The translations under genes were made by a program, and so were the position numbers. A stretch of DNA of 64,000 bases, taken from positions 62,001 through 126,000 of the forward strand of contig NZ_BJDU01000005.1 of NCBI RefSeq assembly GCF_005405305.1, given 5' to 3'. Position 1 is the stretch's first letter, and each line of letters opens with the position of its first letter. The notes beneath the pieces are model-generated. The model made no database searches, was not told the origin of the DNA, and saw only the letters and a list, made by a program, of their open reading frames with translations. This DNA comes from Companilactobacillus formosensis. GTDB taxonomy: Bacteria; Bacillota; Bacilli; Lactobacillales; Lactobacillaceae. Of the stretch, positions 4,006 through 19,608 are shown in pieces.

Positions 4006-4030
4006 AAAATAAATAATAAAAGACGTTTTC

Positions 4031-4190
4031 CAGTCGGGAGTGGCAGCTTTGTGGATGCTCAGTACTGAAATTTTGCTTAGCGATTTATCGCTTAGCAAAA
4101 GGTCAATCTTGGAGATGATTCCCGGTTCTGGAATTAGCTTCAAGTTGCGCCCAGTACGTTCCAGCATCCACAAAGCAGAACGGACGACGA
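4031..4190. ncRNA. Structured intergenic element, copy A (candidate non-coding RNA)
   Basis: Strand is not settled; coordinates are given on the plus strand. Long stem P1: GCTTTGTGGATGCT (4046-4059) with AGCATCCACAAAGC (4163-4176). P2: GTACTG (4062-4067) with CAGTAC (4152-4157). P3 hairpin: 4071-4083 with 4088-4100, loop TTTA, one T-T mismatch (4078 and 4093). P4: 4108-4114 with 4138-4144. A small inner hairpin surrounds CCCGGTT. Copy B at 18211-18377 has the same plan with different stem sequences. The plus-strand 3' side is followed by a hairpin with a T run (4212-4252). I do not recognise the family. Open reading frames here do not look like proteins. Confidence 0.65.
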
Positions 4191-4211
4191 CATCTAGCGG
4201 TAACCTAGCTT

Positions 4212-4252
4212 AAAAAAGAACCCAGAAAAATTAATTTCTGAGTTCTTTTTTT
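4212..4252. terminator. Terminator after asnS (works in both directions)
   Basis: An AAAAAAGAAC..AGAAA arm pairs with TTTCT..GTTCTTTTTTT around a short AT loop. It ends the minus-strand asnS transcript, and on the plus strand it follows structured element A. Confidence 0.85.
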
Positions 4253-4260
4253 ATTATCTA

Positions 4261-5652
4261 TTAAAATTCAGCGTTACCAGGTGTTCTTGGGTAAGCAATG
4301 ACATCTCTGATATTTTCCATACCTGTGATGTACATAACTAATCTTTCAAAACCAATACCGAAACCTGAGTGAACTGTACCACCGTACTTACGTAATTCTA
4401 AGTACCACTTGTAGTCTTCTTCGTTCATATCAAGTTCAGCCATTCTAGCTTCTAGTTTGTCTAAACGTTCCTCACGTTGTGAACCACCAATCAATTCACC
4501 AATTTCAGGAACTAACAAGTCAGCGGCAGCAACGGTCTTGCCATCGTCATTAGCACGCATATAAAATGCCTTGAAATCCTTAGGATAATCAGTGATGAAG
4601 ACAGGCTTCTTGTAAACTTGTTCTGATAGATAACGTTCATGTTCAGAATCAAGATCTAGTCCCCAGTAAGGTTTAACTTCGAATTCAACGTCAGTAGCTT
4701 TTTCTAGGATGTTGATAGCATCAGTATAAGTTACGTGAGCAAATTCTTCGTTAGCTGTAGCTTTTAAGCGGTCGATCAAAGTATTATCAACGTTTTCGTT
4801 CAAGAATTCTAGTTCTTCTTTAGCGTGATCCATTACGTAGTTGATAACGTACTTCAACAATGCTTCTGAACAATCCATTTCATCTTTCAAGTCAGCAAAA
4901 GCAAGTTCTGGTTCAATCATCCAGAATTCTGAAGCGTGACGTCCAGTATGTGAGTTTTCAGCTCTAAATGTAGGACCGAATGTGTAAACATTTCTAAATG
5001 CCAAAGCAAATGGTTCAACTTCTAGTTGTCCAGAAACAGTTAAGTTTGTTTCTTTCTTGAAGAAGTCTTGGCTGTAATCAACCTTGCCATCATCTGTCTT
5101 TGGAACGTTGTTCATATCTAAAGTTGTAACTTCAAACATTTCACCAGCACCTTCAGCATCAGAACTAGTAATGATTGGTGTGTGAACGTAAACGAAGTCA
5201 TTGTGTTGCAAGTATTCGTGGATAGCAAAAGCAGCTAGTGAACGAATTCTGAAGACTGAGTAGAATGTGTTAGTTCTTGGGCGCAAATGAGCTACTGTTC
5301 TCATAAATTCATATGAGTGAGCTTTCTTTTGCAATGGATAATCAGCGTTTGAAGATCCTTCTTCGATTATTTCTGTAGCATGGATTTCAAATGGTTGTTG
5401 AGCTTTAGGTGTCAAAGCTAATTCACCAACAACTTTGATAGTTGTACTGATTGGGTACTTAACTACTTCAGCGTAGTTTTCCATGTCGCTAGTCATAACA
5501 ACTTGCACATTCTTGAAGAATGAACCGTCGTTTAATTCGATAAAACCAACTCTCTTTGAACCTCTGATTGTACGAATCCAACCAGAAACAGTGATCTTGT
5601 CACCGTCAGCAAATTCTTTTTTGTATAAATCTTTAACCAAAACGTTTTGCAT
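4261..5652 (-). CDS. asnS: Asparaginyl-tRNA synthetase
   Basis: Charges tRNA-Asn with asparagine in the cytoplasm. The 463 residues match the usual length. An N-terminal OB-fold anticodon-binding domain ([20 protein letters not shown]) is followed by the class II catalytic core, with motif 2 around [14 protein letters not shown] and motif 3 [15 protein letters not shown] near the C-terminus. The start ATG has AGGAG nine bases upstream. A T-box leader precedes it, so expression should rise when uncharged tRNA-Asn accumulates. Confidence 0.97.
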
Positions 5653-5688: not shown

Positions 5689-5945
5689 AAAAAAAGATCC
5701 TCCATCCCTAATAAAAGGGACGAAAGATCTTTTCCGCGGTACCACCCAAGTTTTTTGTAAAAAACACCTCAAAGTACATAAATATACTCTCCAATTGTAA
5801 CGCATTGGGTCACGTCTGTACCTACTCTACCTCCATAGATGTATTTCAGCCAGAAATAACGAAGATGTTTTTCCTATATACCGACACGTTAAGTTCTCAC
5901 TTGCCTTAACTCCCTGTGGATAAAGTATACAGTACTCCTTCTTCT
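5689..5945 (-). promoter_or_regulatory. T-box riboswitch controlling asnS
   Basis: On the minus strand the T-box consensus GGGTGGTACCGCGG lies at 5734-5747. It is followed by a competing terminator, with AAAGATC/GATCTTT arms and a T run (5689-5732). Upstream is a stem I region with a GTTAAG/CTTAAC apical hairpin. A GGAAAAACATC segment offers AAC as the specifier codon at 5867-5869, which fits asparagine. Specifier placement is inferred from position rather than from a computed fold. Confidence 0.93.
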
Positions 5946-6034
5946 AATATTATTCATATTGATTTTCTTAAATGTAGCATATTTTCATACCAAATGTAAA
6001 GTACAATAGAGAAGTATTTATAAGGGAGGATTTT

Positions 6035-7678: not shown

Positions 7679-9058
7679 TTGGAAAAAAAATCATTAAATA
7701 GAAGTCTGTCTTCAAGACAAATGCAGATGATTGCTTTGGGTGGAACAATTGGCGTTGGTCTATTTATGGGTTCAGCTTCGACTATCAAATGGACAGGTCC
7801 TTCGGTTTTAATCGCATATGCTATTGCAGGTTTGATTTTGTACATGGTTATGCGTGCTTTAGGTGAAATGATTTACACAGATCCATCTACAGGTTCTTTT
7901 GCAAAATTCGGCTCCGAATATATCCATCCAGTTATCGGTTATTTGACTGCTTGGAGCAATGTTTTTCAATGGTTAGTCGTCGGAATTTCTGAAGTAATTG
8001 CGGTTGGAACTTACCTAGAATTTTGGTGGCCCAATTTACCACAGTGGCTCGTTGGAATTGTCGTTGTCGCCACACTTTGTCTAGCTAATTTAACTTCTGT
8101 TAAAGCCTATGGCGAAATGGAGTTTTGGTTCTCACTGATCAAAGTTATCACGATTATTTTTATGATCATCATGGGACTTTTAGTTATCTTGTTCGGTGTT
8201 GGTAACAATGGACATCCCGTTGGTATCAGCAACCTTTGGACTAATGGCGGTTTCTTCACAGGAGGTTTGAAAGGTTTTATCTTTGCCCTTTCAATCGTTG
8301 TCGCTTCTTATCAAGGTATCGAAGTTATTGGTATCACGGCTGGTGAAGCAGAAAATCCTCAAAGCAGCATCGTTCATGCAATTCGTACTATCGTTGGAAG
8401 AATTTTGATTTTTTATATTGGTGCAATTTTTGTTATCGTTTCAATTTATCCTTGGAACAAATTAGGTACGATGGGCTCCCCTTTTACCGAAACCTTTGCC
8501 AAAGTCGGAATTACCTTTGCGGCTGAAATCATCAATTTTGTTGTTCTAACTGCAGCTCTTTCTGGGTGTAATTCAGGTATGTTCAGTGCCAGTCGAATGC
8601 TTTATACGCTTGGCTTAGAAAATAACTTACCAAAGTCGTTCAAGAAAATTTCTAAAGCGGGCGTTCCTTATATTGCCGTTATCACTATTTCACTGGGTAT
8701 CTTAATTGGCTTGATCATCAACTTCTTACTTCCCGTTTTATTCCACACTTCTAGCGATATCTTCGTAGTCGTCTATAGTTCCAGTGTCTTGCCGGGTATG
8801 GTACCGTGGTTCGTTATTTTGTTCAGTGAGCTTCATTTTAGAAGACTTAACAAAGATAAAATGAAAGATCATCCCTTCAAAATGCCACTCTATCCTATCA
8901 GCAATTACTTAGCTATTGCAGCATTGTTAGTAATTCTAGTCTTCATGTTCTTAAATCCAGAAACGACTATTTCATTGTTGATTGGAGTTGTTTTCTTGGT
9001 ATTCATGACTTGCTTCTACTTTGTTCGTGAAAGATTTCAAACACATAAGGAAAAATAA
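7679..9058 (+). CDS. AAT/APC-family amino acid permease
   Basis: About 12 membrane segments in 459 residues. The first segment carries the family glycine motif GGTIGVGLFMGS, and EMIYTDPSTGSFAKF and the EAENPQSSI loop are typical of proton-coupled amino acid permeases of the CycA/AnsP branch. The longer frame starts at 7580 inside the preceding terminator. The likely start is TTG at 7679, preceded by GAGGGTGG, giving MEKKSLNRSLSSRQ, which matches how family members begin. Substrate specificity cannot be deduced. Confidence 0.88.
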   Translation: MEKKSLNRSLSSRQMQMIALGGTIGVGLFMGSASTIKWTGPSVLIAYAIAGLILYMVMRALGEMIYTDPSTGSFAKFGSEYIHPVIGYLTAWSNVFQWLVVGISEVIAVGTYLEFWWPNLPQWLVGIVVVATLCLANLTSVKAYGEMEFWFSLIKVITIIFMIIMGLLVILFGVGNNGHPVGISNLWTNGGFFTGGLKGFIFALSIVVASYQGIEVIGITAGEAENPQSSIVHAIRTIVGRILIFYIGAIFVIVSIYPWNKLGTMGSPFTETFAKVGITFAAEIINFVVLTAALSGCNSGMFSASRMLYTLGLENNLPKSFKKISKAGVPYIAVITISLGILIGLIINFLLPVLFHTSSDIFVVVYSSSVLPGMVPWFVILFSELHFRRLNKDKMKDHPFKMPLYPISNYLAIAALLVILVFMFLNPETTISLLIGVVFLVFMTCFYFVRERFQTHKEK

Positions 9059-9096
9059 AAAACTTTGACTGTTTTTAAATAGTCAAAGTTTTTTCA
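9059..9096. terminator. Bidirectional terminator between permease and nadD
   Basis: AAAACTTTGACT pairs perfectly with AGTCAAAGTTTT, flanked by A and T runs between convergent genes. Confidence 0.9.
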
Positions 9097-9119
9097 TTAC
9101 AAAATAGAATCTAAATACT

Positions 9120-9764
9120 CTACTTTTTATAAATCCCCTTATCCTTAATATACCAAGCTACGTCATCAGGAACGTAATACTTCAACGACTTACCTTCACG
9201 AACTCGTTGTCTTATCACGGTTGAACTAATTTCAATCACTGGTGTATTGACCCACATGATTGGATATTGGGATTTTTTTTCGTAGCCTTTACGACAGACC
9301 CCGACAAAGTGAACTTCCTTAACTAATTCATCAATATGCGACCACTTGGACAAACTCTCAACAATGTCATAGCCGACAATCAAATAATACTCAGTATTAG
9401 GATTGCGTTCTTTTAGTCGTTTAATCGTTTCGTAAGTGTAACTGACCCCACCTAGATCAATATCAGTCATATCAAGTTGAAAATTAGGATTATCTCTAAT
9501 GCCATATTTGATCATATTGATACGGTCATCGACACTGACTTTAGGAATATAGCGGCTAACTCCACGATGTGGTGGCACTTTACTAGGAATAAATAAAATC
9601 TTATCCAAATTCAATTGTTCAAAAACTTGTTGAGCAATCATCAAATGACCATTGTGAATCGGATTGAATGATCCACTGAGAATGCCGACATGTTTCTTCT
9701 TAAAATTAAAATCTAATTGCGGTTGGACTTTTGTTCTAGTTAAAACTGCTCCAGCTGTATTCAT
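9120..9764 (-). CDS. nadD: Nicotinate-nucleotide adenylyltransferase
   Basis: Forms deamido-NAD from nicotinate mononucleotide and ATP. The nucleotidyltransferase motif GSFNPIHNGHL and the C-terminal ISSTVIRQRVREG are present. The 214-residue length includes a lactobacillus-style N-terminal extension of about 25 residues before the catalytic GILSGSFNP strand. A TTG at 9785 could extend it by seven codons, but the ATG at 9764 has AGGCGAG at suitable spacing. A TATAAT box at about 9805-9810 gives it its own promoter. Confidence 0.92.
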   Translation of the reverse strand: MNTAGAVLTRTKVQPQLDFNFKKKHVGILSGSFNPIHNGHLMIAQQVFEQLNLDKILFIPSKVPPHRGVSRYIPKVSVDDRINMIKYGIRDNPNFQLDMTDIDLGGVSYTYETIKRLKERNPNTEYYLIVGYDIVESLSKWSHIDELVKEVHFVGVCRKGYEKKSQYPIMWVNTPVIEISSTVIRQRVREGKSLKYYVPDDVAWYIKDKGIYKK

Positions 9765-18018: not shown

Positions 18019-18196
18019 AATTTATATCCTCGTATCCTCTGATAATTTCAACACTTGATGATATAATATTTTATTCAAAATATAAAATAAAACGATTTTT
18101 GAGACCCATTACACAAAAAAATACCTATTCAAATCTCTTCTAATTACTAGATTATCTGAATAAGTACTATTATTCTTTTAGATTAAAAACACTTGA
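18019..18196. other. Intergenic stretch with an imperfect hairpin
   Basis: No gene is seen here. An imperfect hairpin (18122-18134 with 18154-18166, 11 of 13 pairs) is followed on the minus strand by a T run and could end a minus-strand transcript coming from structured element B. Its TTCAGAT core also appears in the terminators at 29733 and 46791. An AT-rich segment (18061-18095) probably holds the antiporter promoter. Confidence 0.45.
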
Positions 18197-18210
18197 CTAA
18201 TCGTAGGATC

Positions 18211-18377
18211 TAGTCCGGAATAGCAAAGCAAATTGGCTCAAATGTGAAATTTCACTTGGCAATTTATTGCCTAGTGAAAGGTCGAGCTTGAAGACTTTGC
18301 CCGGTTTTGGGCTTAGCAAAGGCTCCAAGTCGTGCCCACATTGTTCCAGCCAAATTTGCTTTGCTATGGAGGACGGA
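18211..18377. ncRNA. Structured intergenic element, copy B (candidate non-coding RNA)
   Basis: Plus-strand coordinates; strand unknown. P1: TAGCAAAGCAAATTGGCT (18221-18238) with AGCCAAATTTGCTTTGCTA (18348-18366), one bulge. P2: AATGTG (18241-18246) with CACATT (18337-18342). P3: 18250-18262 with 18267-18279, loop TTTA, one T-T mismatch at the same stem position as copy A. An inner hairpin GCCC..GGGC surrounds GGTTTT. Unpaired GAAA, AGGTC, GCCC and GTTCCAGC are shared with copy A at 4031-4190. It lies directly downstream of the MFS gene on the minus strand. Confidence 0.65.
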
Positions 18378-18426
18378 ATATTACAGTTCAAAAAGAGCTA
18401 TTTTACATTATATTAGAGCCTAACCA

Positions 18427-19608
18427 TTATTCTTCAGTATTTAATTTCTGAGGCTCACCAACAATCAAGTGATCTAAAATCGAAATTACTAAGAATACAA
18501 AAGCTACAATACAAACTCCGGACCAACCGAATTGTCCCCAAGCCCAAGTAGCTGACAAAGTTCCGATTGAACCACCTAAAAAGTAACTGAACATGAAAAC
18601 TGAATTATTACGACTGCTTTGTTTACGATTAATCGATTGAACAATCGCTTGATTAGACACTTGACTGAATTGTGTACCTAAATCTAGCAAAACAATTCCG
18701 ACAATCAAGCCAATGATCCAAAAGCCAACTAGCCAAAAAATCACAAAAGCTAAACCAGAAAAAATCATACTCAAACTAATTGTCAGTTTAGGTGATTTTT
18801 GATCGACTAAATCTCCAACCCAAGGTGCTACTAAAACTCCGGCAATTCCAAGTAATCCTAATAATCCAGCAACATTACTACCTAAATGATACTGGTCTGC
18901 CAAATAGAAGGCTAACGTTGACCACAAGACATTTGACATTCCAAACATACAAAAGCCGTTGATAGAAGATCCACGTAATTCTTTTTGAGAAATAAATAAT
19001 TTTGGTAGCATTTTGATAACTAACAAATAGTTTAAATCTTGATGACCACGCTGATCTTTTGGCATAAAGCGATGCACAATAACTAAAAAGATTAAATCGA
19101 TTACCGCAGCGACTAAATAAATATCTTGCCAAGGCATGATGCTTCCCAATAGGCCACTAAACGAACGTGATAACAAAATACCAGTTAACAAACCACTCAA
19201 AACAATTCCCAAGACTTTTCCACGTTGTAAAGCTGGTGCTAAATAACCTGCATATGGAATGATAATTTGCGGTGCGACTGATGTGATACCAATTAAAGTT
19301 GTGGCAATCGCAAATACTGCAGCATTTGGTGCTAAAAAGGCTATCATTAATGAAATAATTGACAAAACCATCATGAATTGAATCAAGTGATACCGATCAA
19401 AAATATCTCCTAATGGAACTATTAGCAATAAGCCAAAAGCATAACCCAATTGCGTTACCATCGCTAATATCCCAACAACTGCTTTAGATACTCCAAAATC
19501 AGTCGCAATCAAGTTTTCAATCGGTTGAATAAAATTTAAATTAGCAACGATGACACCTGTTACTACGGCCATCAATAAAATGGTCTTTTTTGACATAGTT
19601 TTTTCCAC
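18427..19608 (-). CDS. MFS transporter (drug or sugar efflux type)
   Basis: A 393-residue major facilitator with 12 membrane segments. The loop 2-3 motif appears as PLGDIFDRYHLI. It most resembles the AraJ/YdeR-like efflux branch. It starts with GTG two bases after the PadR regulator's stop codon and uses the GGGGGAGAA box inside the end of that gene, so the two are coupled. PadR pairs of this kind usually repress a drug exporter until an inducer binds. The exported compound is unknown. Confidence 0.85.
   Translation of the reverse strand: MEKTMSKKTILLMAVVTGVIVANLNFIQPIENLIATDFGVSKAVVGILAMVTQLGYAFGLLLIVPLGDIFDRYHLIQFMMVLSIISLMIAFLAPNAAVFAIATTLIGITSVAPQIIIPYAGYLAPALQRGKVLGIVLSGLLTGILLSRSFSGLLGSIMPWQDIYLVAAVIDLIFLVIVHRFMPKDQRGHQDLNYLLVIKMLPKLFISQKELRGSSINGFCMFGMSNVLWSTLAFYLADQYHLGSNVAGLLGLLGIAGVLVAPWVGDLVDQKSPKLTISLSMIFSGLAFVIFWLVGFWIIGLIVGIVLLDLGTQFSQVSNQAIVQSINRKQSSRNNSVFMFSYFLGGSIGTLSATWAWGQFGWSGVCIVAFVFLVISILDHLIVGEPQKLNTEE

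Follow-up and report, generated by a model that had tools for sequence, protein, structure and literature searches.

Short structured repeats of Companilactobacillus as probable halves of a mobile element with two unlike folded ends

Dispersed, mobile and folded repeats are known in Firmicutes, for example in the Bacillus cereus group with its bcr repeats, to which the modules described here can be likened in general description. The attC sites of integrons, single hairpins found in integrase cassette arrays, keep their structure while their sequence varies, and certain extrahelical bases are fixed. For Streptococcus pneumoniae, PMC3049150 describes the repeats BOX, RUP and SPRITE, with tens to more than 100 short folded copies per genome; BOX and RUP carry end repeats and target duplications, BOX is modular and SPRITE is terminator-like. 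Stem-loop clusters of Lactobacillus johnsonii are listed in PMC2267715. Among the papers listed by searches of an open-access collection, none describes the repeat reported here.

The window, a stretch of 64,000 nucleotides from Companilactobacillus formosensis, contains two solo structured modules on the plus strand. Copy A (4028-4190), of type A and composed of P0, P1, P2, P3, P4 and P5, was matched by model R1 with 161.3 bits and is backed by covariation in the family; copy B (18208-18376), of type B, was matched with 195 bits. These positions agree with those given by the first-pass annotation, and the ORF list bears out its statement that both copies are intergenic. The neighbours, all on the minus strand, are asnS and a gene of glyoxalase type at copy A, and MFS and antiporter-like genes at copy B (names read from ORF translations). 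The asnS gene (4261-5652, minus strand), which adjoins copy A, has a match in 36 of the 36 genomes of the genus, and the MFS transporter-like gene (18427-19608, minus strand), which adjoins copy B, served as the anchor for comparison of that site. Among named records, the one closest to this asnS comes from Companilactobacillus paralimentarius, with an identity of 94%. An ordinary T-box leader upstream of asnS (5713-5957, minus strand) is the sole match in the window to Rfam 15 at gathering scores.

Both copies retain parts of a larger unit. The inner arm of copy A (4011-4027, plus strand) was delimited from the sequence and from orthologous sites; the partner module is absent beyond it and present at this place in genomes G022 and G031. 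The outer arm (4191-4222, plus strand) extends to AAGAACC, a TIR-like end identified from the sequence, from comparison of outer arms and from the orthologous sites L108-L110, and runs into the asnS terminator hairpin. This hairpin (4212-4253), with A and T runs 3' of asnS, was read by eye as both terminator and insertion target with the help of the element-free site of G003 (L113); it received no terminator score in the consensus scan. Copy B is preceded by a spacer remnant (18113-18207, plus strand) with an imperfect hairpin and no partner module, recognized from the sequence and from comparison with G031, where an A-type module occupies the site. Its outer arm (18377-18420, plus strand; AATATTACAGTTCAAAAAGAGC...) has a decayed end, as compared with the outer arms of other B modules. 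Judged from these relatives, each copy would be what is left of a pair, A after loss of a type-B partner and B after loss of a type-A partner.

The sequence and alignment of A against B contain the base-pair swaps in P2 and P3 quoted by the first-pass annotation, as well as its TTTA loop and, in P3, the T-T mismatch. Of the segments it took to be unpaired, GCCC is mostly paired in helix P4. An outer helix, GTCN/NGAC, closes the module, with three pair types at N among 20 copies from the source genome. For these copies RNAalifold predicts 54 pairs, 30 of which show a two-sided change in one or more copies; among 47 distinct sequences of the genus, both-side change affects 51 of the 54 pairs and 96.6% of the cells are standard pairs. 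In the same 47 sequences pairing falls to 37-43% when partners are slid by one to three columns, and none of 500 shuffles reaches any of the five measures used. Seven other genera supplied 28 further modules with this fold, in which 96.7% of the cells pair and 45 of 50 pairs have changed on both sides. P1 is completely rewritten and the G+C content of the modules ranges from 0.38 to 0.69; the stretches CUCAG, GAAAU, AGGCCGAGCUU.GAGAC...GGCUC.AAGUCGUGCCC and GUUCCAGC are near-constant in most sequences of the seven other genera. The alignments A3, A4 and A5 were fitted to the structure of the model and lean towards it; A2, the source-genome alignment, is free of such fitting and gives the same kind of both-side change. 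The covariation is far beyond chance, and compensatory change keeps the fold of the module, as had been proposed from the two copies.

A known Rfam family is ruled out as the identity of the module by gathering-score and permissive scans with Rfam 15, in agreement with the first reading, which could place the element in no family. Gathering scores gave no match on the modules of other genera. The permissive scan of seven source-genome loci gave nothing on the elements, and over the 14 loci scanned permissively the sole weak overlap, of 21.7 bits, was with a microRNA model whose gathering score is 100.

The idea of a two-copy element had to be abandoned, as the source genome contains 55 R1 matches (E<=0.001), 41 of them of at least 150 nt. 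A pattern built from the conserved loop occurs at 28 places in this genome and the reversed pattern at 5. Nine R1 matches of 60-82 nt align from the first to the last position of the model, so that both ends are kept and inner domains are missing. The relatives G031 and G022 have 115 and 97 matches, respectively. In the first search of relatives, with the best 47 candidates per genome scored and counts that are lower bounds, R1 found matches in at least 32 of 36 Companilactobacillus genomes, including the source, and none were listed in 24 other genomes. A broader model, R2, built from 49 sequences, has matches in at least 95 of 301 Lactobacillaceae genomes and at least 14 of 40 genera, again as lower bounds, the best 10 candidates per genome being scored within this family. 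The result of 0/24 outside the genus therefore reflects the sensitivity of R1, because R2 finds the fold in other genera. Within Companilactobacillus, G006, G008, G020 and G034 have no R1 match; R2 matches G008 and G020 (10 of 10 scored candidates each) and has no match in G006 or G034. Three named lactobacillus loci (L192-L194) contain no module, and a distant BLAST search of the plasmid collection (E<=0.001) gave no match to either copy, so that plasmid-borne relatives were set aside.

The modules, folds of about 165 nt each, form divergent pairs with their 5' ends inward, separated by a spacer of about 50-440 bp from which each module is read 5' to 3' outwards. The order of the unit is end repeat, module (reverse), spacer, different module (forward) and end repeat, over a length of about 440-600 bp in Companilactobacillus and about 740-870 bp in genus g55. 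In G305, of the latter genus, 50 of the 53 modules are arranged in 25 pairs, all in (-,+) orientation; 22 pairs consist of a 160-161-nt and a 171-176-nt module, and the other three measure 172/209, 168/164 and 140/161. Neighbouring matches in the source genome are inverted in 9 of 11 pairs, and the other two involve a remnant or a run of N. These orientations do not fit an IS200/IS605-derived element, the end hairpins of which lie on the same strand. At one place of the source genome (G000 C8, about 9008-9336; L007, L093) two near-identical modules meet across a stretch of N, which may be a gap that the repeat left in the assembly.

Partners of one unit are unlike each other, with an identity of 58-77% in 32 other pairs picked by hand from the fetched loci; the pair L067 has similar P1 arms (0.88). 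In Companilactobacillus they look like different sequence types (A+B, D+B, D+C), the types A-D having been assigned by eye, as were hairpin splits and P3 junctions. Unlike partners may simply be survivors, because identical partners would form a long unstable palindrome. No intact transposase gene was found inside any unit. A shared gene beside the modules was sought at 29 loci and nine others and rejected, as both large ORF clusters coincide for the most part with the modules. In G100, from another genus, one spacer (L387), bounded by a module end at 559 and a module start at 886, contains an 86-aa ORF resembling RelB/DinJ antitoxins (36.8 bits, where that family requires 45.65; without a Pfam match), which is possibly cargo.

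Sister species provide empty and filled versions of the same sites. The place 3' of asnS is occupied by a hairpin without element in G003 and carries an element in the source genome, G022 and G031, the G022 unit being opposite in orientation to that of G031. At the copy-B site the element is absent in G026, G014 and G003, and two sites on contig C9 are without it in G003. Opposite orientations of A-B units among the source genome, G022 and G031 were seen at the asnS site, the copy-B site and one C9 site, which suggests inversion or repeated insertion. Over 264 kb of the source genome (the window and ten further stretches), 14 of 16 units are clear of predicted ORFs; one of the other two overlaps an ORF by about 10 bases and one has a 106-aa ORF across its right module. 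Convergent gene ends are not clearly enriched in units (4/16, background 44/242).

Other repeats occur in the same regions. An IS3-like element of two ORFs (name read from the ORFs) sits inside an A module of G022 (L182); being inserted within the module, it was rejected as the autonomous partner of the pieces around it. A second, different palindromic repeat (AGAGAGTGGAACAAGCCCGGGAATTTCC...TAGCTCGTTT...), whose outer stem is, by eye, long and whose inner stems vary, is present in the genus at L115, L116, L120, L121, L122 (after asnS), L145 and L146.

The ends of the units connect part of them to the ISL3 family. An end similar to TAACTTAAGAAAGAACC is found on 33 of 97 module 3' ends from 64 fetched Companilactobacillus loci, a count that includes one site twice (L098 = L110), and on 0 of 97 shuffles, which preserve single-base content only; two thirds of the module ends are without an ISL3-like end. 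The GGTTCTTTCTTAAG-like end repeats of units resemble the ends of an intact ISL3-family insertion sequence. This element, from G008 (609 aa; PF01610 and NF033550), has ends GGTTCTTTCTTAAACTTGGTTAG and an exact 8-bp duplication, GTTTTGCC, and is located in the loop of a perfect hairpin. The flanks of the units at L094, L102, L274 and L297 are, by eye, the two halves of one hairpin split at the loop. L297, which was missed by the end-repeat pattern and is read from the comparison of outer arms, has the 7-bp repeat AATTGAG (8 bp should the right end stop one base earlier), and near matches occur at L094 and L102. Exact target duplications are found at few units, and at the asnS site of G031 (L098) the unit is placed within the 3' arm of the hairpin instead of the loop, with a repeat of about 12 bases. 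The units of G305 have ends of another kind, GATTAAAACGTGCC with the core ATGATTAAAACGTGCC (L391-L410); this motif, used to look for a parent insertion sequence, has 46 hits, most of them flanking modules.

Several transposases were considered as partners. G016 has six matches to a related transposase, and in all six the right end CTAACCAAAGTACAACAAGAACC abuts, by eye, the P3 loop of a module; R1 scored one of these matches across the junction (18.7 bits). In G033 a decayed copy also abuts the P3 loop of an A module and has the 5' start of a second A module on its other side. This piece and the six of G016, the latter seen at their right ends, are read as insertions into modules, and the idea that either genome holds a transposase native to the unit was rejected. 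Of the 36 genomes, 6 contain the transposase subgroup nearest to the G033 piece. As direct parents, the 418-aa ISL3 elements of G031 and G022 were rejected because their ends differ. ISL3 matches in the source genome comprise a longer one of 332 aa, whose insertion sequence has a different end, and two short pieces at contig ends.

The distribution of these enzymes does not follow that of the units. An ISL3 match is absent in 11 of the 36 genomes of the genus, including the module-rich G024, G035, G030, G029 and G013, with at least 28-47 R1 matches each; as lower bounds, G024, G030 and G035 have more than 40 each. G006, conversely, has one ISL3 match and no module. Movement by ISL3 enzymes cannot therefore be the present state in every genome, and in the ISL3-free genomes the enzyme could have been lost since.

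That the repeat is a non-autonomous mobile element with two unlike folded end modules is well supported: it is multicopy, has element-free orthologous sites and carries no transposase of its own. End repeats matching an autonomous element, also expected of a MITE, were found for part of the units, in Companilactobacillus only. Movement by ISL3 transposases in this genus is likely, though inferred. As a whole, the reading of A and B as lone halves of one short MITE-like element, moved in trans by these enzymes, appears to us probable, with appreciable room for doubt. ISL3-family transposases would act on the units in trans and insert them into hairpin loops, including those of terminators; the fold would be kept since the plus strand serves as a folded single strand, ssDNA or RNA, in the cycle of the element, and the P3 hairpin may double as a landing site for hairpin-seeking ISL3 elements. 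The transposon or MITE origin that the first-pass annotation had set against its own proposal applies to the element as a whole and leaves the internal fold unexplained; a plain MITE requires no 165-nt fold, which counts against the MITE explanation. Across genera of Lactobacillaceae the folds of paired ends are kept and nearly every stem is rewritten. We offer only tentatively, as a rather doubtful extension, that the units form a mobile class of the whole family, in which two unlike three-way-junction ends act jointly as ssDNA or RNA in mobility or upkeep, on different transposase systems.

Other explanations start from the fold instead of from mobility. The module could be a structured non-coding RNA, regulatory or the partner of a protein, spread by a mobile element and working as the plus-strand transcript. 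This is a possibility that we regard as doubtful, even though the constant bulges, the T-T mismatch of P3 and the three-way junction with near-constant loops, present in most sequences of the seven other genera, would suit it. On the plus strand G-U exceeds A-C in the diverse sets (A3 69:30, columns 27:8, p=0.0019; A5 38:12, columns 17:4, p=0.0072), but the excess is missing in G031 (A4, 52:72, columns 13:15) and slight in the source genome (A2, 40:34), and G-U pairs are few on both strands, about 4% of the pairs in predicted folds (157/3944 on plus, 151/3941 on minus). RNA fold energy is lower on the plus strand in 45 of 65 sequences; with the G-U/A-C balance, this points weakly to a folded plus strand, DNA or RNA. 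Promoter-like sites favour the RNA reading in genus g55: compared with shuffles that preserve single-base content only, they are directed towards the shorter module in 14 of 20 G305 spacers (shuffled 6.2, sd 1.9) and towards the longer one in 11 (shuffled 5.8, sd 2.0), and 10 of the 20 have a site of the TTGACA-18-AACAAT type 49 nt before the shorter module. The G305 spacers are, however, related copies, so the common site may be due to descent; 16 Companilactobacillus spacers show no excess (7 of 32 directions, shuffled 10.6), and no such site was found around copy A or in L099. Dispersal in up to 115 copies per genome also speaks against an RNA gene. What remains of the "RNA family" of the first-pass annotation is the conserved fold without a match in Rfam 15, carried by a dispersed, apparently mobile repeat in place of a two-copy RNA gene.

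The covariation itself might be mainly a by-product of correction at the DNA level, in which the inverted arms of imperfect palindromes stay complementary through template switching or gene conversion, without a selected folded function. The stems are almost purely Watson-Crick, compensatory changes separate closely similar copies (L005 against L009), and the two end repeats of a G305 unit agree better than chance, with 0.76 mismatches inside a unit and 2.49 from one unit to another (p=5e-5, 17 of 20 units), which would fit this process; matched ends are, however, also expected where one transposase must bind both. Against it, short helices of 4-6 pairs with arms far apart covary, whereas bulges, loop letters and the T-T mismatch are nearly fixed across genera. 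Correction alone should repair the mismatch too, and we consider this account unlikely, although such a process could contribute to the covariation. It is still harder to see the units as terminators or mRNA 3'-end elements adopted by the host (SPRITE- or REP-like), their mobility being incidental. One C9 unit of the source genome does lie 13 bases past a stop codon, at a place taken in G003 by a terminator-like hairpin, and many spacers hold such a hairpin by eye. Incoming transcripts, however, would read the nearer module on its minus strand and not on the favoured plus strand, gene orientation at the units is in line with the background, spacers of 52-60 bp have no hairpin by eye, and the terminator scan of L099 found none; we regard this explanation as improbable.

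If the favoured reading of a mobile element with folded ends is correct, a well-studied bacterial family of food and health harbours an abundant and apparently undescribed class of structured repeats. It would also offer a clean system for asking why a mobile element retains an elaborate fold, with many natural variants, candidate transposases and sister species in which the same sites are empty or filled. A word of caution follows for annotation, in that strong covariation alone does not prove an RNA gene.

Among described systems, BOX, RUP and SPRITE are alike in their many short folded repeats, and BOX and RUP also in their end repeats, a likeness by description; here, two unlike three-way-junction modules of about 165 nt stand back to back and covary in several genera. 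With the ISL3 insertion sequences and their MITEs part of the units share the end repeat GGTTCTTTCTTAAG... and, at several sites, hairpin-loop targets; a few also have candidate duplications close to 8 bp. They differ from them in carrying no transposase and in their large folded modules, which are missing from the G008 insertion sequence, and the ends of the G305 units are different. Like attC sites, the modules retain their fold while letters change and some bases stay fixed; unlike these single hairpins, each is a three-way junction.
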